The position numbers were made by a program, and so were the translations under genes. The notes beneath the pieces are model-generated. The model did no database searches and was not told the DNA's origin. It saw only the letters and a program-made list of their open reading frames with translations. A stretch of 64,000 bases of DNA from NCBI RefSeq assembly GCF_004365355.1, contig NZ_SODP01000001.1:2301473-2365472 (forward strand). Reading direction: 5' to 3'. This document shows, piece by piece, positions 2,554-33,553 of the stretch; positions within the stretch are counted from its first letter, which is position 1; the number at the start of each line of letters is the position of its first letter. The stretch comes from Kribbella pratensis (GTDB taxonomy: Bacteria > Actinomycetota > Actinomycetes > Propionibacteriales > Kribbellaceae).

Positions 2554-4293
2554 GTGGCTGAAGGCCCACAGGGGCGCGGGAAATGGGACGAGGGGGCGCT
2601 GGAGTACGCCGGTCTGTCCCGCGTGCGCCTCGATGCCCTGCTGCAGGAACTGCTCGGTCGCGTCGACGAGATCATGGACTATCAGGAACGCCTGCGGGCG
2701 TTGCTCGACGCGGTCGTCGGCATCGGCGCGGACCTCGACCTGAACAGCACCCTGGACCGCATCGTCACCGCCGCCTGCGAACTCGCCGGAGCCCGGTACG
2801 GCGCACTCGGCGTCGTCGGCCCCGACGGCAAACGGCTCGTCCGCTTCATCACCCACGGCGTGACCGACAAGGAGATCGCCGCCATCGGCCCGTACCCAGA
2901 AGGCCACGGCATCCTCGGACTCCTGATCGAACACCCCGAACCGATCCGCCTGCACGACCTCGCCGAACACCCGCGATCCTACGGCTTCCCGAGCAACCAC
3001 CCGCCGATGAAGAGCTTCCTCGGCGTCCCGATCCAGACCCGTGAACACGCCTTCGGCAACCTTTACCTGACCGAGAAGACCGGCGGCGCAGACTTCACCG
3101 AGGACGACGAACGCACGGTCACCGCTCTCGCTGCCGCCGCGGGCGTCGTGATCGACAACGCCCGCTTGTACGCCGATACCGAGCAGCGTCGGCGTGGCCA
3201 TGAGGTCACCGCGGAGATCACCCAGCTGATGCTCGGCGAGTTCGACGCCGAGCAGGCGCTCCAACTCATCGCCCAGCGATCCCGGGAACTCTCCAGGGCG
3301 CAGGTGGCAGCCGTACTGCTTGCGGACGGCGACGAGCTGGTTGTGCGCGCCGTCGACGGACCGCCCGAGTTCCACCGATTCCTGGGCCGTCACATCCCTG
3401 CCGACCTTCCCGTGCTCGGCCTGGCGACGACCAGGGACGAGCAGGTCGTGATCGAAGACCTGGCACAACTGCTGAAGGACGCCGGGGTGTCCGACTTCCC
3501 CGAAGGTGCGAATCTCGGCCGGACGACGATGGCGCCCCTGCCGGCCGGCAGCTCCGGTACCGGAGGCCTGCTCGTGGTAGCCGCCGAACAAGGATCAGCC
3601 ACCCGGGTTTCGGAGAGTGCCGACCTGGTCCGGATGTTCGCCGGTCAGGCCACCCTGGCGCTGGAACGCGCCCAGGCACAACACGACCGGGACATGCTGG
3701 CGGTGCTCGAGGACCGCGACCGGATCGCCCGCGACCTGCACGATCTCGTCATCCAGCGACTCTTCGCCACCGGGCTACAGCTCCAGGGCATGCAACGGCT
3801 CGTGCGACCGGAACACCGAGAGCGACTCAGCCGCGCCGTCGACGACATCGACATGACGATCCATGATCTTCGCGCCGCGATCTTCGAACTCCAGCAAGCA
3901 CCGGATGCCAGCTCATTGCGCGGCGACATCCAGACACTGGTCTCCGAATACGCCGAACCGCTCGGATTCAGGCCCCAACTGATCTGCACCGGCCCGATCG
4001 ACACCGTCGTACCTACCCCCGTCCGGCCACAGATCCTCGCCACGATCCGCGAATCGCTGTCCAACGTCGTGCGGCACGCGCAGGCCTCGCACGTGACCGT
4101 CGAGGTCACGGTCGGCGCCGGCCAAGTGATCGCCCGGATCTCCGACGACGGTGTCGGCATCGGCTCGGGCAGCCGCAGCAGTGGCCTGCGCAACCTCACC
4201 GAGCGCGCTCAATCACTCGGCGGCAGCGTGCAGATCAGCGACAACGAGCCGCATGGCACGGTGGTCGAGCTGACCGCGCCGACCGGCGACTGA
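2554..4293 (+). CDS. devS: DevS/DosS-type heme-GAF sensor histidine kinase
   Basis: A 579-residue cytoplasmic sensor kinase with two GAF domains (about 60-205 and 225-370), a HisKA_3 dimerisation segment and an HATPase domain. The GAF-A segment SNHPPMKSFLGVPI puts a histidine at residue 149, matching what I recall as the heme-ligand His149 of M. tuberculosis DosS. The phosphoacceptor is H396 in IARDLHDLVIQRLFATG. ATP-binding boxes are ESLSNVVRHA, DDGVGIG and GLRNLTERA. It starts at GTG 2554 without an obvious ribosome-binding site. No DosR-type box was seen directly upstream, so it may be cotranscribed with the PNPOx-like gene. It likely senses O2, NO, CO or redox and phosphorylates the regulator at 5421-6074; heme binding is inferred. 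Confidence 0.93.
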   Translation: MAEGPQGRGKWDEGALEYAGLSRVRLDALLQELLGRVDEIMDYQERLRALLDAVVGIGADLDLNSTLDRIVTAACELAGARYGALGVVGPDGKRLVRFITHGVTDKEIAAIGPYPEGHGILGLLIEHPEPIRLHDLAEHPRSYGFPSNHPPMKSFLGVPIQTREHAFGNLYLTEKTGGADFTEDDERTVTALAAAAGVVIDNARLYADTEQRRRGHEVTAEITQLMLGEFDAEQALQLIAQRSRELSRAQVAAVLLADGDELVVRAVDGPPEFHRFLGRHIPADLPVLGLATTRDEQVVIEDLAQLLKDAGVSDFPEGANLGRTTMAPLPAGSSGTGGLLVVAAEQGSATRVSESADLVRMFAGQATLALERAQAQHDRDMLAVLEDRDRIARDLHDLVIQRLFATGLQLQGMQRLVRPEHRERLSRAVDDIDMTIHDLRAAIFELQQAPDASSLRGDIQTLVSEYAEPLGFRPQLICTGPIDTVVPTPVRPQILATIRESLSNVVRHAQASHVTVEVTVGAGQVIARISDDGVGIGSGSRSSGLRNLTERAQSLGGSVQISDNEPHGTVVELTAPTGD

Positions 4294-4304
4294 TCGGCGA
4301 CCGG

Positions 4305-4340
4305 CAGCCGAAAGACCTTCCGACTCGGGACTCTTGCCTG
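4305..4340 (+). promoter_or_regulatory. Tandem DosR-type boxes upstream of Acg-like nitroreductase 1
   Basis: CAGCC-GAAA-GACCT (4305-4318) and GGGAC-TCTT-GCCTG (4327-4340) start 22 bp apart, about two helical turns. The second includes TCGGGACTC, which recurs upstream of 9658 and 28903. The pair lies 60-95 bp before GTG 4400 and inside the longer in-frame reading that begins at 4334, which argues against that earlier start. Confidence 0.6.
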
Positions 4341-4399
4341 CAGCGCCGCGCTCCTCTGACGGCGAGGCTGAAGGAGAGCACCAGTGGGAGGAGCCTCCA

Positions 4400-5377
4400 G
4401 TGGCTGACCAGCAGTTGCCGGCAGAACATGTCAACGCTTTGCTCGAGGCGGCCGTCGCCGCACCCAGCATGCACAACACCCAGCCCTGGCGGTTCGAGGT
4501 CAGCGGGCACGTGATCGACCTCTTCCTTGACGACTCACGCACTCTGCCCGCCGAAGACCCAACCGGCCGGGCCATGAGGATCGGCGCCGGCGCCGCGGCC
4601 TTCAACCTGCGCTGCGCGGCCGCCGCCCTGGGCTATGGCACCTGGTACGGACTCGCACCGTACGCCGAAGAGCCCGACCTCCTGGCCCGCATCGTCATCG
4701 AACCGAGCAGCACGACGGACGAGGCGTTGAGTGTGCTCGCCGAGGAGATCCCCCACCGCCGCACGGACCGTCGTCCGACCGATTCCACGCCGTTGGCGGA
4801 GAACGTCCGGATCGCTCTGCTGCACGCGGCGTACGTCGAAGGTGCCGAACTGAGCTGGCTCGGCGCGGCCGAGATCCACACCGTGCTCGATCTGGTGCTG
4901 GATACCGACCTGCGCGAGATCAGCGACTGGCATCGCCGCGCCGAACGGGCCCATTGGGTCGGCGGCGCGCGGACGACCGACGGCGTACCGAGTTCGGCGC
5001 TCGGGCCGCGATCGACCAGCTATCCGTCCACCGTCCGCGACCTTGCCACTCAGCCTCTGGACCGGATGCGCGAGCAGTCGGCCTTCGAGGCCGATCCGGA
5101 TCTCGCGGTCCTGTCGACCGCCTACGACGAGCCCGCGGATCAGGTCGCCGCCGGGGCCGCACTCGAACGAGTCCTGCTGACCGCGACCCGGGCCGGCGTC
5201 AGTGCGTCGTTCCTGAACCAGCCGCTCGAGTTCGAGGACCTGCGCCGCAAGGTGCAGAGCCTCACCGGGCAGCCCGGGCACGCCCACATGATCATCCGTT
5301 TCGCTCACAGCCGGCCGGGCCCGCACACAGCCCGTCGCCCGGTCGCCGACTTCGCTCCCACCGACGAGCAATCATGA
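4400..5377 (+). CDS. Acg-like nitroreductase-family protein
   Basis: A 325-residue protein of the Acg group of nitroreductases (M. tuberculosis Acg/Rv2032 type), a flavin-sequestering branch induced in hypoxia. Diagnostic features are the N-terminal APSMHNTQPWRFEV, DDSRTLPAEDPTGRAMRIG, the IPHRRTDRRPTDSTPL segment, and a C-terminal half with ERVLLTATRAGVSASFLNQPLE. Half the family's classical FMN site is normally missing in Acg proteins, so catalysis is uncertain. GTG 4400 is chosen because GGGAGGAG lies about 7 nt upstream and the 4334 alternative overlaps the promoter boxes. A paralogue lies at 9658-10632. The gene sits between the sensor kinase and the response regulator. Confidence 0.88.
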   Translation: MADQQLPAEHVNALLEAAVAAPSMHNTQPWRFEVSGHVIDLFLDDSRTLPAEDPTGRAMRIGAGAAAFNLRCAAAALGYGTWYGLAPYAEEPDLLARIVIEPSSTTDEALSVLAEEIPHRRTDRRPTDSTPLAENVRIALLHAAYVEGAELSWLGAAEIHTVLDLVLDTDLREISDWHRRAERAHWVGGARTTDGVPSSALGPRSTSYPSTVRDLATQPLDRMREQSAFEADPDLAVLSTAYDEPADQVAAGAALERVLLTATRAGVSASFLNQPLEFEDLRRKVQSLTGQPGHAHMIIRFAHSRPGPHTARRPVADFAPTDEQS

Positions 5378-5420
5378 CCACCTCTTCGGCGATGTTGCCG
5401 GGCCGACCAACAGTCGTGCG

Positions 5421-6074
5421 CTACGGCTGCTGGTTCTTCTTGGAGTGTTCGATAGCGAAGACGGCAGCCTCGGTACGACGTTCGAGGTTGAGTTTGCGCA
5501 GCAGCGACGACACGTAGTTCTTGACCGTCTTCTCGGCGAGATAGAGCGACTGGGCGATCTGCCGGTTCGTCTTCCCCTCGGCGATCTCGGCCAGGATGCG
5601 TCGTTCCTGGTCGGTCAGCGAGGCATACCTCGGGTCCTCGGCCTCGGCCGGATGGCGGAGCCGGTCAAGGACCTTCGCCGTCATCGCAGGGTCGAGCAGC
5701 GACTCGCCGGCAGCCAGGCTCCGGACCGCGTCGATCAGGGTCTGGCCGTGGACCTGCTTCAGCAGATACCCCGAGGCTCCGGCCATGATCGCGGTGAACA
5801 GCGCCTGGTCGTCCGAGTACGACGTCAGCATCAGGCAGGCCGGCGGCTCGTCCATCAGCGACCGGACCTCACGGCAGACGGTGATCCCGTCGCCGTCGGG
5901 CAGGCGGACGTCCAGCACGGCGACATCGGGACGTACGGCGGGGATCCGCGCGATCGCCTCCGCGGCGGTCCCAGCGTCACCGACGACCTCGATGTCAGGC
6001 TCCGCGTCGAGCAGCTGGTGCAGTCCCAGCCGGACCACCTCGTGGTCGTCGAGCAGAAACACCTTGATCGCCAT
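5421..6074 (-). CDS. devR: DevR/DosR-type response regulator (NarL/FixJ family)
   Basis: A 217-residue regulator. The receiver domain carries acidic pocket D9/D10, phosphoacceptor D55 in LDVRLPDG, T84 and K106. The C-terminal LuxR-type HTH contains LTDQERRILAEIAEGKTNRQIAQ. Its recognition helix AEKTVKNYVSSLLRKL is very close to that of mycobacterial DosR, including the DNA-contacting K and N residues of TVKNYVS. This supports reading the GGGAC-N4-GTCCC elements of the island as its sites. It is convergent with the Acg-like gene and divergent from 6277, with three candidate boxes between, so autoregulation is likely. Confidence 0.93.
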   Translation of the reverse strand: MAIKVFLLDDHEVVRLGLHQLLDAEPDIEVVGDAGTAAEAIARIPAVRPDVAVLDVRLPDGDGITVCREVRSLMDEPPACLMLTSYSDDQALFTAIMAGASGYLLKQVHGQTLIDAVRSLAAGESLLDPAMTAKVLDRLRHPAEAEDPRYASLTDQERRILAEIAEGKTNRQIAQSLYLAEKTVKNYVSSLLRKLNLERRTEAAVFAIEHSKKNQQP

Positions 6075-6160
6075 ACCGACTCCTTCGGATTCCGGACACT
6101 CCTCCGAAGGATCGCTCCCGCGGTCAGCCGAGGGCCAGGGTCAACGGTCCCGGGCCCACC

Positions 6161-6215
6161 GGGACCTTCGGCGGGAACGGGCCGAGCGGCCCTGGTCGCT
6201 CAGGACATCGGCCCC
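6161..6215. promoter_or_regulatory. Cluster of DosR-type boxes between devR and HTH-PNPOx gene
   Basis: Three 14-mers with the same layout lie in the 200-bp divergent gap: GGGAC-CTTC-GGCGG (6161-6174), GGGCC-GAGC-GGCCC (6179-6192, perfectly palindromic) and AGGAC-ATCG-GCCCC (6202-6215). A longer dyad GGTCCC...GGGACC overlaps at 6147-6166. Either or both flanking genes could be controlled. Confidence 0.5.
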
Positions 6216-6276
6216 TGCCCGCCCGGGCCCGGAATTGATTGTCTGAAGATGGCACATCGATGCGAAAGGGACTGCG

Positions 6277-6924
6277 ATGGACAGCAGGTCACAGACCACA
6301 CCAACGCCGAGCGACCTCGGCCTCCGGATCCGGCGGCGCCGGCTGGCGCTCGGCCTGAGTACCGCGGAAGTTGCCGAACGCACCGGCTCGAGCATCGAAC
6401 GCATCGAGCAGATCGAGACCGGCCCGTTCGCGCTGACCGGCGGCGGACTCGTCCGCCTGGCCCGCGCTCTCGACACCGACGTCGACGATCTCACCTCGCC
6501 GCGCCGTCCCCGGACTCCTCACCGCGCGCCGATCGCGCCGGTCCTCGATCCGATGCGCCGCGAGGAATGCATCACGCTGATCGACGCCCGTGACGTCGGC
6601 CGGATCGCGTACAACCGAGCCGACGAGCTGGTGGTGATCCCGGTCAACTACTGCCACCTCAACGGACTGATCATCTTCCGGACCGCGGCCGACAGCGCGG
6701 TCGCGCAGTACGACCTGGCCCCGGTCGCGTTCGAGCTGGACGACCTCGACGAAGGAATGCGAGAGGGCTGGAGCGTCCTGGTGAACGGGATCGTCCGTCC
6801 GGCCACGCCCGAGGAGAGCCAGCTCGCCCGCGGCCGGGTGGAGCCGTGGGCCGGCGGCACCCGCGAGACCTGCATGGTCGTCGAGCCCCACCGCATCACC
6901 GGCCGACGCATCCGGTCCGGGTGA
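6277..6924 (+). CDS. XRE-type HTH fused to PNPOx-fold flavin-binding domain
   Basis: A 215-residue two-domain protein. Residues 8-68 form a Cro/CI-type HTH (RIRRRRLALGLSTAEVAE, then a recognition helix around SSIERIEQIETG). Residues 85-215 form a PNPOx-like split barrel with ECITLIDARDVGRIAYN, VIPVNYCHLNGLIIFRTA and WSVLVNGIVRPAT. HTH-PNPOx fusions occur in actinobacteria and may be flavin- or F420-responsive regulators, but the ligand is unknown. Start ATG 6277. It reads away from devR over the shared box cluster. A hairpin terminator follows at 6935-6978. Confidence 0.87.
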   Translation: MDSRSQTTPTPSDLGLRIRRRRLALGLSTAEVAERTGSSIERIEQIETGPFALTGGGLVRLARALDTDVDDLTSPRRPRTPHRAPIAPVLDPMRREECITLIDARDVGRIAYNRADELVVIPVNYCHLNGLIIFRTAADSAVAQYDLAPVAFELDDLDEGMREGWSVLVNGIVRPATPEESQLARGRVEPWAGGTRETCMVVEPHRITGRRIRSG

Positions 6925-6934
6925 GCACGAGAAC

Positions 6935-6978
6935 ACGAAAGGGGTCGCACCGTCGCCGGACGGCGAGGCCCTTTTCGT
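6935..6978 (+). terminator. Rho-independent-like terminator
   Basis: An inverted repeat with arms ACGAAAGGGGTCGC and GCGAGGCCCTTTTCGT (one bulge/mismatch), followed by a short T-rich stretch. It lies 11 bp after the stop of the HTH-PNPOx gene, in the gap before the convergent stress-protein gene. Confidence 0.6.
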
Positions 6979-7089
6979 GCTTTGTCAGCGATCCAGCTCA
7001 TGCTCGCGCAGGCATCCCCGCGCCGACCATCCAGGCCGTGCCGGAACCGATCGAATGCATCATTGCTGCTCCTCACGGCTCCGATCGGA

Positions 7090-8016
7090 TCAGTACGTCG
7101 GCACGACGGCGTCGCTGTGCCGGGAGCTGTGCAGCTCGTGCCCACGCTCGGCCGTGGCCGGGTGATGCGGCACGACGGCAACCGGGCACGTCATCGCCGC
7201 GACCGAACGGCGCGCCACCGGGTCGATCGGCAACGGGCCCGCATGCGCCCCTACCACGACCAGCCCCACGTCGGCGCTCTCGCGCACGAGCGCGGCGGCC
7301 GGCTGGCGACTGCTCAGGAACCGCGTCACCTTGACGGCCGGGAACCGGCTCGTCCACCGCGCGAGTGTCTCCGAGAGCATGTGATCCGCCCGGCTGATCC
7401 AGGTGTGGTCCGGATCGCCGTCGTCGAAGGCGTGCTCAGCCGGCAGTCCGGCGTGTACGACGACCAGGTCGGCTTCACGGCCGGCGGCGACGCCGAACGC
7501 GAACTCGAGTGCTTCCGTGCACAGCGCCGTACCATCGATGCCCACGGCAACCTTCCGGTCGAGCAGCGACGGCTTCCAGGTTGCCGGTACGACGACCACC
7601 GGGCAGCCGGCCCGGCCGGCCAGCGTCAGGCTGACCTGCGTGTTGACAAGGCGCTGCGCGCCCCGGCTACGGGACCGCCTGACCACGAGCATCCGCGCGT
7701 TCCGTGCCGCGTGCGCGAGTACCCGCACCCGCGATCCCTCACCGGCGACCGCGGCCAGCTCGGTCGCATAGCCGTCACGATGCCGGACATGCGCGACAGC
7801 TGCCCGCAGCGCGTCGTCCGCGTGCTCGGCCGGAGACCTCGGGGCGTATCCCGGCATCATCGGCGTGTACGAACTGTGCGCGGAGTACGGCGCGACCAGT
7901 ACGAGTTCCGCACCGGCCCGAAGCGCCTCCGCGGACGCGTAGTCCACCACTCGCAGGTTCTCCGCACTGCCGTCGACCTCGACCACCACGGGTCCGGTCC
8001 GGTTCCAGGTACTCAT
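7090..8016 (-). CDS. Universal stress protein, tandem UspA domains
   Basis: A 308-residue protein of two UspA folds (about 1-145 and 160-305). The first opens with VVVEVDGSAENLRVVDYA, and the second with KVAVGIDGTALCTEALEFAFG. The ATP-binding GxxGxH/GS-type motifs of both halves are partly altered (MLVVRRSRSRGAQRLV in the first, LVVVGAHAGPLPID in the second). Tandem Usp proteins are the most common class of DosR-regulon products and may bind ATP or redox signals. It is the last gene of a three-gene set with another Usp (15 bp upstream) and DoxX. Confidence 0.9.
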   Translation of the reverse strand: MSTWNRTGPVVVEVDGSAENLRVVDYASAEALRAGAELVLVAPYSAHSSYTPMMPGYAPRSPAEHADDALRAAVAHVRHRDGYATELAAVAGEGSRVRVLAHAARNARMLVVRRSRSRGAQRLVNTQVSLTLAGRAGCPVVVVPATWKPSLLDRKVAVGIDGTALCTEALEFAFGVAAGREADLVVVHAGLPAEHAFDDGDPDHTWISRADHMLSETLARWTSRFPAVKVTRFLSSRQPAAALVRESADVGLVVVGAHAGPLPIDPVARRSVAAMTCPVAVVPHHPATAERGHELHSSRHSDAVVPTY

Positions 8017-30267: not shown

Positions 30268-30300
30268 ATTCCGCCCGTTCGGGTGGAAGCAAGGGGAATC

Positions 30301-31257
30301 ATGTCCAACTCGAAGAACCGCCTCGTGGCGGCAGGATCCGCATTCACGCTGGCCGTCACCGCAGTCGGTATTTCGCTGCTCGGTGGTGGTGCGGCCGACG
30401 CCGGCGTCACCGGCGTCACCGGCCTGACTGCAACGGCGATCACTTACCCGCTGGTCCGCAACTCGGTGGCCGAGAGCCAGGTGGTCAACTACAGCCTCGG
30501 CGAGAGCGACCTGCAGAAGGCGTTCGTCGCGAAGATGCTCGCGGTCCCGGCGAACGGGGTCGACACGTCGGCCAAGCTGAAGGACGGCGTAGTGGCAGAG
30601 GTCGACCTCGCCCCAGCGGTGCAGAGCAAGTTGAACAAGGCGGGCCCGGCGTACCTGAAGCACTGGGGCACGGTGCACCGCAACGTGATCGGCGCGGCAG
30701 ACGCCGAACTCGCCACGACATCCACCCAATCACCACTCGGTGACGGCGCCCTGGATCTACACACCGCATCCGCGAACGACAAGGTGGCGTTCGGCAACGA
30801 AGTCGACTTCGCCGGCCAGAACGTGAAAGACCTCGGCACGGTCGGCTTCTCGGTCTACACGACCGGCGAGAACAATGCCCTGGGCAACAACATGCCGAGT
30901 ATCGCCTTCGAGATCGACCCGAATGTGGCGGCGGTGACGTCGAACTACGCGTCGCTGGTGTACACACCGGCCAACGGCGCAGCCAACCAGTGGACAGCCT
31001 TCAATGCCACCACCGACGCGGACAAGCACTGGGGGCTGACCGGCACCGCGTTCAACGGCACGACGTGCTCGATCAACGGCGCCCGCTGCACCTGGACCGA
31101 GGTGCTCAACTACCTGGACGACGGCGGCGACGACGCCAAGGTGCTCACGGCAACCGTCAGCAAGGGCCGCGACTACGCGTTCTCCGGCGCGGTCGACGCA
31201 CTCAAGTTCGGCGGCAAGACCTACGACTTCGAAGCCGCCGGAGTCACCGTCAGCTAG
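30301..31257 (+). CDS. Secreted hypothetical protein
   Basis: A 318-residue protein with a signal peptide (basic start, then AAGSAFTLAVTAVGISLLGG and an AxA-type site near AADA). The mature part contains ITYPLVRNSVAESQVVNYSL, LQKAFVAKMLAVPANGVDTS, VEVDLAPAVQ-like segments and a C-terminal beta-rich domain with a single disulfide candidate (TTCSINGARCTW). I do not recognise the family. ATG 30301 follows AAGGGGAATC. The tRNA-like hairpin lies 34 bp upstream, and a TATAGT hexamer about 90 bp upstream could be a promoter -10. Confidence 0.75.
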   Translation: MSNSKNRLVAAGSAFTLAVTAVGISLLGGGAADAGVTGVTGLTATAITYPLVRNSVAESQVVNYSLGESDLQKAFVAKMLAVPANGVDTSAKLKDGVVAEVDLAPAVQSKLNKAGPAYLKHWGTVHRNVIGAADAELATTSTQSPLGDGALDLHTASANDKVAFGNEVDFAGQNVKDLGTVGFSVYTTGENNALGNNMPSIAFEIDPNVAAVTSNYASLVYTPANGAANQWTAFNATTDADKHWGLTGTAFNGTTCSINGARCTWTEVLNYLDDGGDDAKVLTATVSKGRDYAFSGAVDALKFGGKTYDFEAAGVTVS

Positions 31258-31682: not shown

Positions 31683-32846
31683 ATGAAGTTGTCCACCTAC
31701 GCGACCTCGATCGGCCGGGTGCGTCTGAGCGTTCTGGCCGTCGCGGCCGCGCTCGTCGTCTCCGCCGGCGGTCTGCTGGCCACCGGCGGCACTGCTCAGG
31801 CGGCGGCCGTGGTGGTGCCACTCGGCACCGCCGAGAGTTTCGTCATCCTGGCCGGGGCCGGCATCACCAACACCGGTCCGACCGTGCTGACCGGGGATAT
31901 CGGGTCCTTCCCGAATCCGGCGATCAGCGGCACCGGGACGATGACGATCACCGGCACCAACCACGCCGGCGACAACGTGACCCAGGGGGCGAAGGACGAT
32001 CTGGTCACGGCGTACAACGTCGCCGCCGGCGAATCGCCGCCGACGCCGATCACCGACGACCTCGGCGGCAAGACGCTGACCCAGGGCGTCTACAACTCGG
32101 CGTCCTCGATCGGACTGACCGGCGCGCTGACGTTGGACGCGGAGGGCGACGCGGGAGCGGTCTTCGTGTTCCAGGCAGGTTCGACCCTCACCACCGCGCC
32201 CAGCAGCAGCGTCGTACTGACCAACGGAGCCCAAGCCTGCAACGTGTTCTGGCAGGTGGGCAGCTCAGCCACCCTTGGTACGGCGACGCAGTTCCGCGGG
32301 ACCATCATGGCGTTGACGTCCATCACCATGAACACCGCGGCCACAGCCGTCGGCCGGATGCTGGCCCGCAACGGGTCCGTCACGCTCGACACCAACACCC
32401 TCACCAAACCGTCCTGCACCCCCACCACTCCGCCCACCACACCGCCGACGACGCCCCCCACAACCCCACCAACATCACCTCCTACTTCGCCTCCGACCAC
32501 ACCGCCCACGACTCCCCCCACCACGCCCCCCACTTCACCGCCCACCACACCGCCCACGACGCCGCCCACCACTCCCCCCACTTCACCGCCCACCACGCCC
32601 CCCACTACGCCGTCCACGACTCCACCGACATCGCCTCCCACGTCCCCGCCGTCATCTCCCACGACCCCACCACCGACGTCGCCTCCGACCTCCCCGCCGG
32701 TGCCCACGGTCTCGCCCGGACCGCCCCAGGTCACCGACACCCCGCAAGGCCCTGTCAATACAGGCGATGCCTCCGGCCCGTCGATCTGGCTCGTCGAGCC
32801 GCCGACCGCGCCATGGTTCGGCTGGATCGGGGCCGGCACCCCATGA
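31683..32846 (+). CDS. DUF3494 ice-binding-like surface protein with Pro/Thr-rich stalk
   Basis: A 387-residue secreted protein. It has a signal peptide (VRLSVLAVAAALVVSAGGLL, cleavage near AQA), then a DUF3494 beta-helix domain (LGTAESFVILAGAGITNTGP, VLTGDIGSFPNPAISGTGTM, AFVFQ-type strand VFVFQAGSTL, NVFWQVGSSATLGTATQFRG, TIMALTSITMN). A stalk of about 95 residues built of TPPTTPP/TSPP repeats follows. The end reads PQGPVNTGDASGPS, then a weakly hydrophobic tail. DUF3494 proteins include antifreeze/ice-binding proteins and adhesins; ice binding here is unproven. The stop overlaps the start of a sortase gene by ATGA, suggesting the sortase acts on this protein. Confidence 0.87.
   Translation: MKLSTYATSIGRVRLSVLAVAAALVVSAGGLLATGGTAQAAAVVVPLGTAESFVILAGAGITNTGPTVLTGDIGSFPNPAISGTGTMTITGTNHAGDNVTQGAKDDLVTAYNVAAGESPPTPITDDLGGKTLTQGVYNSASSIGLTGALTLDAEGDAGAVFVFQAGSTLTTAPSSSVVLTNGAQACNVFWQVGSSATLGTATQFRGTIMALTSITMNTAATAVGRMLARNGSVTLDTNTLTKPSCTPTTPPTTPPTTPPTTPPTSPPTSPPTTPPTTPPTTPPTSPPTTPPTTPPTTPPTSPPTTPPTTPSTTPPTSPPTSPPSSPTTPPPTSPPTSPPVPTVSPGPPQVTDTPQGPVNTGDASGPSIWLVEPPTAPWFGWIGAGTP
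32418..32703 (+). repeat. Pro/Thr/Ser codon repeat (stalk of DUF3494 protein)
   Basis: In-frame degenerate repeats of ACN-CCN-CCN-ACN units coding TPPT/TSPP. Such tracts form extended, wall-spanning stalks and are prone to length change. Confidence 0.85.
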
Positions 32847-33553
32847 GGACCGGCGCAGCGGTTCTGCTCCTCGCGACCGCGTCGGCTGTGACCGGGTGCA
32901 GTATTGAGTCAGGCACGGGGCCGACTCAGCCCGGCCCCACCGCAGCCGGCGTCGCGAGCGAGCGAACCGCTGCGCCTACTACCACCGTGATCACACCCAC
33001 GCCCAGGCACGCCCCTGCAGCAGGAGGGCCCAGCCCAACACACAGCTCCGGGCCACCCGCTCGGCCGTCGACGCCACCAGGCCAGAGGCGCGGACCGTCG
33101 GCACCAATGCCGAAGTCGGCTCCGATCCGCGTGATCATCCCGGCGATCGGGGTGGACTCGGGTCTTGTGCGTCTCGGCCTCAACCGCAACGGCACCCTGC
33201 AGGTACCACGGAACGGATTCCCGGCCGGTTGGTTCACCGGTGCTCCCACGCCCGGCGAGAAGGGTCCGGCCATCATCGCCGGTCATGTCCACTGGGCCGG
33301 CCGGGCCGGAGTCTTCGCCAGGCTGGCGCGGCTCGAGCGGGGCGACACGATCACGGTGACGCGGCAAGACCGCTCCACCGCGCTGTTCCGGGTGAGCCGG
33401 GTGCAGCAGTATCCGAAGGCCACCTTCCCCAGCGCCGCGGTGTACGGCGATATCGACCACCCCGGGCTGCGGCTGATCACCTGCGGCGGACTCGACACCG
33501 TGTCGGCGAAGTACGAGGCCAACCTGGTGGTCTTCGCCGACCTGAGCAAGTAG
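32843..33553 (+). CDS. Class F-type sortase, probable lipoprotein
   Basis: A 236-residue sortase. The N-terminus is a lipoprotein signal with lipobox AVTGC (Cys19), then a Pro/Thr-rich linker to about 90. The catalytic domain carries VIIPAIGVDSGLVRLGL, His148 in IIAGHVHW, and Cys214 in LRLITCGG followed by YEANLVVFAD. The usual catalytic arginine near the end is not evident at that spot. ATG 32843 overlaps the preceding stop as ATGA, so the two genes are translationally coupled. Class F sortases of actinobacteria are poorly studied; the upstream surface protein is the obvious candidate substrate. Confidence 0.88.
   Translation: MRTGAAVLLLATASAVTGCSIESGTGPTQPGPTAAGVASERTAAPTTTVITPTPRHAPAAGGPSPTHSSGPPARPSTPPGQRRGPSAPMPKSAPIRVIIPAIGVDSGLVRLGLNRNGTLQVPRNGFPAGWFTGAPTPGEKGPAIIAGHVHWAGRAGVFARLARLERGDTITVTRQDRSTALFRVSRVQQYPKATFPSAAVYGDIDHPGLRLITCGGLDTVSAKYEANLVVFADLSK

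Follow-up and report, generated by a model that had tools for sequence, protein, structure and literature searches.

We describe a gene pair in the soil actinobacterium Kribbella in which a class F sortase seems to be dedicated to a neighbouring secreted DUF3494 (ice-binding-like) protein whose C-terminal motif is conserved, but which has no membrane helix or basic tail. The canonical cell-wall sorting signal consists of a motif, a membrane helix and a basic tail; the protein in our window, i.e. the whole 64,000-nucleotide stretch of DNA under analysis, has the C-terminal motif and lacks the other two elements. We propose that the sortase anchors the DUF3494 protein to the wall via VxT|G even though this substrate has no tether of the usual kind, and we put the probability of this reading at about 65%. 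Among the points against it is the substrate itself, which is without the helix and basic tail by which known sorting signals are in part defined.

The gene pair and its conservation in Kribbella

In the window genome (8.37 Mb), the Pfam sortase model finds five matches, and there is a single DUF3494 gene. The latter encodes a protein of 387 aa (31683-32846, + strand; ORF and PF11999 match, E 7.3e-63, 212.4 bits against a gathering cut-off of 28.7). A probable Sec signal peptide, with cleavage at about AQA|AA as judged by eye (31683-31802, +), precedes the DUF3494 domain (aa 55-241; 31845-32405, +; PF11999 match) and a Pro/Thr/Ser-rich repeat linker evident in the translation (32406-32720, +), which would serve as a wall-spanning stalk. 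Conservation and pN/pS then mark the putative sorting motif PQGPVNTGDAS, with the consensus PxGx[V/I]x[T/A]G[D/G] (32742-32774, +), and we take PQGPVNTGDASG as the candidate sorting-motif peptide. The remaining short distal tail, GPSIWLVEPPTAPWFGWIGAGTP (32775-32843, +), is without membrane helix or basic end. A preliminary description of this DNA had the protein end at ...ASGPS, which is wrong, as 20 more residues, IWLVEPPTAPWFGWIGAGTP, follow PQGPVNTGDASGPS. Upstream of the pair lies an ORF (30283-31257, +) whose product begins like a signal peptide and matches nothing in Pfam or NCBIfam.

The TGA stop of the DUF3494 gene overlaps the ATG of the sortase gene in the sequence ATGA (32843-32846, +). 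The sortase comprises 236 aa with the N-terminus MRTGAAVLLLATASAVTGC (32843-33553, +; NF033748), and includes a lipobox, VTGC within AVTGC (32888-32899, +; by eye and regex), and a catalytic domain delimited by profile match, alignment and model (33107-33550, +). The codons of the catalytic His (GHV; 33284-33286, +) and Cys (ITC; 33482-33484, +) fall in invariant alignment columns. Thus, the preliminary description was correct in reporting an overlapping pair, as seen from ORFs, coordinates and profile matches, and in stating that LPxTG is absent from the DUF3494 protein. Its assignment of the enzyme to the class F type with a lipobox also holds, by the NF033748 score and by the regex and visual inspection.

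Our analysis of the genus Kribbella demonstrates that an orthologous sortase (at least 67% identity) is present in 18 of 38 genomes, all of which are among the 19 that possess a DUF3494 gene. This recurrence suggests that the pair is more than a chance arrangement, although the co-occurrence of sortase and DUF3494 gene within the genus could be explained by loss of one locus. The sole DUF3494 genome without the orthologous sortase, a 590-contig draft (G069), encodes another DUF3494 protein, which stops right behind its domain and so has no motif tail; no sortase was found within the 10.5 kb around the gene. A second genome, G043, was considered as the carrier of a decaying ortholog and rejected, since its sortase gene reads as an uninterrupted frame and codes for a different class F enzyme (44% identity).

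Read by eye, every one of the 18 paired tails has PPQVxx[T/I]PxGxV[G/N]TGD close to the C-terminus; the 22-48 residues beyond it vary but always include WF. The preliminary description had expected a sorting sequence that differs from LPxTG, has an end resembling TGD and would be handled by a lipid-anchored sortase; the conserved tails, together with the tracking of class F adjacency described below, support that prediction. In the G057 copy (L044), the motif tail lies in a different frame from the DUF3494 domain, after indels in the repeats. The stop/start overlap is 4 bases at each of the 17 paired loci measured, where the start nearest that position was taken and four loci have an alternative in-frame start further upstream. 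Six named Kribbella loci (L206-L211) contain sortase relatives at 77-86% identity and share their DUF3494 tails with six genomes of the window's genus, the basis on which that genus is taken to be Kribbella.

Association of the motif with class F sortases

According to the accessible text of PMC13251363, class F sortases were first reported in Propionibacterium acnes and have unknown physiological roles. They are common in actinobacteria: the class F model matches 281 of the 394 genomes of the class, 162 of them above the cut-off. The window sortase passes the curated cut-off of NCBIfam NF033748 (178.2 bits versus 166) and matches the Pfam Sortase model with E 7e-22; in the sortase alignment, the H60 and C126 columns are invariant. 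AlphaFold modelling of the sortase domain only gave a pLDDT of 87.7 and a predicted fold that resembles solved sortases. A PDB profile search with the sortase alignment yielded nothing at 1e-6, and a larger alignment gave 16 matches at E <= 1, the best being 4d70 (9.7e-6) and one being an acetate kinase. Family score, His/Cys and predicted fold are therefore shared with the class F sortases, whereas the lipobox start and a dedicated neighbour without canonical sorting signal set the window enzyme apart. The lipobox is found in 18/18 genus sortases, L044 included (regex and eye), and from its sequence the window sortase is probably a lipoprotein; other class F sortases in the sample start with either a lipobox or a membrane helix.

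A probable lipoprotein that is adjacent to and co-conserved with the DUF3494 gene might instead act as a membrane anchor, with the motif as a non-covalent docking peptide for a merely sortase-like protein. This reading could also draw on Asn139 of the window sortase, which, matched by eye and sequence, occupies the position of the strand-8 catalytic Arg of classes A and E. However, among the DUF3494-linked sortases the catalytic His is present in 100/100 and the Cys in 98/100, the two misses being gaps, and both residues are found in all 40 general class F sortases (L166-L205). Because 39 of the same 40 share the Asn, it is a class F trait and not a ground for exclusion. We regard docking as distinctly improbable. 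In 38 of the 40 general class F sortases, an Arg is located four residues before the Cys.

To relate the motif to its neighbourhood, DUF3494 loci were drawn irrespective of sortases from the order (49 of 293 genomes matching) and the class (65 of 394). Six listed matches were left out (G177, the additional copy in G035, and the matches in G597, G334, G443 and G357, which are partial or weak), eight loci were dropped from the adjacency count for open ends, N runs or short flanks, and one fusion was set apart. A DUF3494 gene counted as adjacent when a class F sortase domain began no more than 700 bases downstream of it. The tail motif PxGx[VIPA]x[TSA]G occurs in 39/39 DUF3494 proteins that adjoin a class F sortase, 16 of which are from Kribbella, and in 1/74 of those without such a neighbour, a group that includes L044 as the frameshifted copy having both motif and sortase. 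A loose LPxTG-like pattern flags 27 of these 74 proteins, with at least one of them, L048, apparently a chance match. Of 40 general class F sortases, taken from the top of the class-wide match list, 26 have a neighbouring ORF whose tail contains a stricter form of the motif, versus 1 of 216 background ORFs from the same loci, many of which are possibly not genes. Since both patterns were defined after inspection of the tails, and since common descent of the sequences inflates every count given here, these motif counts overstate the case.

When 96 DUF3494-linked sortases are placed on a tree, the fifth residue of the motif is V or I in 80 rows and P in 14, with one change between them; the motif of the two remaining rows lies outside the 60-residue segment used. 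Within the limits of a tree built from few columns, with 41 of its 93 forks open, this residue of the motif segregates with the sortase clade, to judge from the sequences. Outside the DUF3494 family, a VWA protein at L198 (333-1514, +) has the tail-less end IPRGGVATGGGTVVP, with PRGGVATGGG, and an adjacent class F sortase.

Tails without a membrane helix or basic end

In the window tail after TG, the best 17-residue Kyte-Doolittle mean is 0.64, in keeping with the absence of a membrane helix, and the last 14 residues contain no Arg, Lys or His and hence no basic end. The corresponding best hydropathy ranges from 0.47 to 1.43 in 17 genus tails, compared with 1.66 to 2.69 in 44 helix-bearing pairs. 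This missing part of the signal was overlooked in the preliminary description. Tail-less pairs are found in Kribbella, Blastococcus, Modestobacter, Williamsia, genomes of family f29 and uncultured lineages. The locus labelled Kitasatospora arboriphila (L263) is nearly identical to that of Williamsia muralis (L262) in sortase and tail; the contig may carry the wrong label, the record may be contaminated, or the locus may have been transferred very recently.

The DNA coding for the helix appears to be missing rather than shifted, because the distance from TG to the lipobox Cys is shorter in tail-less pairs (median 140 bases, n=45) than in pairs with a helix (242 bases, n=19). No hidden helix was found in the remaining frame of 50 tail-less pairs, each frame being followed for at most 180 bases, until its first stop. 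Many tail-less pairs have a sortase frame that extends uninterrupted from the motif into the sortase signal peptide. A programmed frameshift joining substrate and sortase was considered but is not supported, as L025 and L026 of the Kribbella rows have a stop in that stretch and the ends of the tails vary from species to species. Nor do we claim that a lipobox predicts the missing helix: the raw counts are 46 lipobox and 4 other without helix, and 19 and 25 with helix, and only two independent pairs lie on supported branches, which leaves the association dependent on phylogeny. These counts follow removal of L074 and recoding of L078 as lipobox by eye (uncorrected, 45/6 and 19/25), and Rhodococcus and others combine a lipobox with a helix.

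The loss of the helix would also fit secretion, with the enzyme processing its substrate instead of anchoring it: hydrolysis at the motif would release the DUF3494 protein, or the protein would be moved to a soluble amine. Among 95 pairs with distinct sortase domains, of which 94 were usable after L074 was dropped (its tail consists of N), 50 are without helix and basic end and 44 have them. This favours processing, although 50/94 should not be taken as a prevalence: up to 80 loci were picked for likeness to the window sortase, which enriches the sample for its relatives. In addition, 15 of the 50 tails stop only 3-10 residues past TG. On the other hand, Pro/Thr- or Gly-rich linkers persist in the tail-less proteins, as in wall proteins, and relatives in Rhodococcus and Nocardioides with the same motif retain both helix and basic tail. 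Processing is therefore, in our estimation, unlikely.

Selection along the tail bears on whether the helix was simply lost by decay, leaving a relic that is merely secreted. The distal tail is fast-evolving (pN/pS 0.73), and the DUF3494 gene is missing from 19 of the 38 genus genomes, both of which would fit such decay. In contrast, the 19-codon motif segment, at a pN/pS of about 0.19, is on this codon comparison under purifying selection, and the sortase is retained with intact His and Cys. Moreover, tail-less proteins turn up repeatedly across the sortase tree, where the fewest changes of tail state amount to 9, albeit on poorly resolved branching. We consider a relic highly improbable.

In the dedicated pair that we favour, Sec would export the DUF3494 protein, and translational coupling would yield the lipobox sortase from the overlapping gene. 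The sortase would recognise P-x-G-x-V-x-T-G-D near the C-terminus and cleave between T and G; by analogy with sortase chemistry, the acyl-enzyme would hold the protein before its transfer to a cell-wall precursor. The protein would thereby become covalently anchored to the wall, with the ice-binding-like domain displayed at the cell surface on its Pro/Thr stalk. The missing tether may be replaced by the lipid anchor of the sortase, by overlapping translation and, in Kribbella, by the short aromatic tail.

Both partners also occur as one polypeptide. In L121 and L148, which come from two genera of family f29 and measure 577 and 523 codons from stop to stop, one ORF combines DUF3494, a Pro/Thr stalk, the motif (KPIGFVATGGGS and KPKGFVATGEGD, respectively) and a class F sortase, and no membrane helix was seen by eye between the domains. 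L239 (Rhodococcus), where the locus end truncates DUF3494, carries motif, helix and sortase on a single ORF, and L266 likewise joins an Excalibur domain, the motif, a hydrophobic stretch and a sortase. A further DUF3494-sortase fusion, L150 (247-1770, -), is without the PxGxVxTG motif, and its sortase is more distant (under the cut-off of the class F model, at 96 bits). Since all five fusions are from multi-contig assemblies (G479, G698, G656 and the L239 and L266 records), sequencing error is possible for each of them; L236 was discounted as a fusion owing to an N run between its domains. In an AlphaFold model of the L266 fusion, residues 1-50 and 52-68 have pLDDT <50, and the motif is disordered and outside the active site, so that the model predicts no docking. 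These forms bring up a broader, tether-free pathway, in which lipid-anchored or soluble class F sortases would take exported proteins by PxGxVxTG alone and L121 and L148 could anchor themselves. We put this forward only tentatively, as an idea with somewhat worse than even odds.

Relation to known sorting signals

The motif is not wholly new, because NCBI already curates the full signal of motif, membrane helix and basic end as NF058571 (GVDTG_CTERM, GVDTG sorting domain; 44 positions, cut-off 29 bits). What is unusual is the truncated form, the motif family being known to curators. When applied to eight helix-bearing proteins, the model scored above its cut-off for L218 (44.5), L187 (32.8), L092 (32.6) and L167 (30.2) and below it for L200 (27.7) and L202 (19.5), with no match to L188 and L039. 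It covers the same motif region as that of the window protein, but by its length and matches it also spans the helix and basic end that the latter lacks. The window DUF3494 protein gives no match with the threshold relaxed to E 10, and L217, a tail-less protein from Modestobacter, aligns with positions 1-14 of the model only (14.5 bits). Across the window genome, no NF058571 match exceeds the cut-off and 25 fall below it at E <= 10, as do matches in 10 of 14 control genomes; tail-less carriers would escape the model, and other proteins of this genome may use the sortase as well.

In related actinobacteria, some DUF3494 proteins carry LPxTG together with a helix and a basic tail; they have the same surface domain and stalk, and would presumably use another sortase. 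Class E sortases of Streptomyces recognise LAxTG, likewise a non-LPxTG actinobacterial signal though for a different sortase class, and the accessible text of PMC5148588 describes it as a motif, hydrophobic segment and basic cluster. Among the titles and abstract openings covered, with most subscription journals outside that coverage, there was no DUF3494-sortase pair, no helix-less class F substrate and nothing combining GVDTG with sortase. In the accessible part of PMC9957290, the terms sortase and LPXTG are absent, and PMC8286594, as far as its accessible text goes, reports that nearly half of adhesin-like proteins have no known anchor.

The motif, already contained in an NCBI model, offers a direct means of predicting substrates for class F sortases. 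According to the available portion of an mBio 2026 paper (PMC13251363), two genes beside class F sortases were set aside for having no known pentapeptide and may encode substrates, and the survey criteria required a membrane helix. Surveys with this demand would miss tail-less substrates, if these are true substrates. If so, substrates without helix or basic tail, together with the one-polypeptide forms, would contradict the textbook three-part sorting signal, and tail-less substrates might permit simpler ligation tags.

Two other loci of the window genome contain sortases beside secreted proteins. At L008 (C1:185000-196000), two tandem secreted proteins (2578-5629) end in VDAG, a membrane helix and RRRG.H and adjoin a different sortase, which may represent a further non-LPxTG signal. 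At L010 (C1:3405000-3417000), a secreted protein that we take to be a DUF4397 protein (5703-7210) ends in PTGVPGGTGG and a helix, and directly precedes a sortase with a lipobox-like start.
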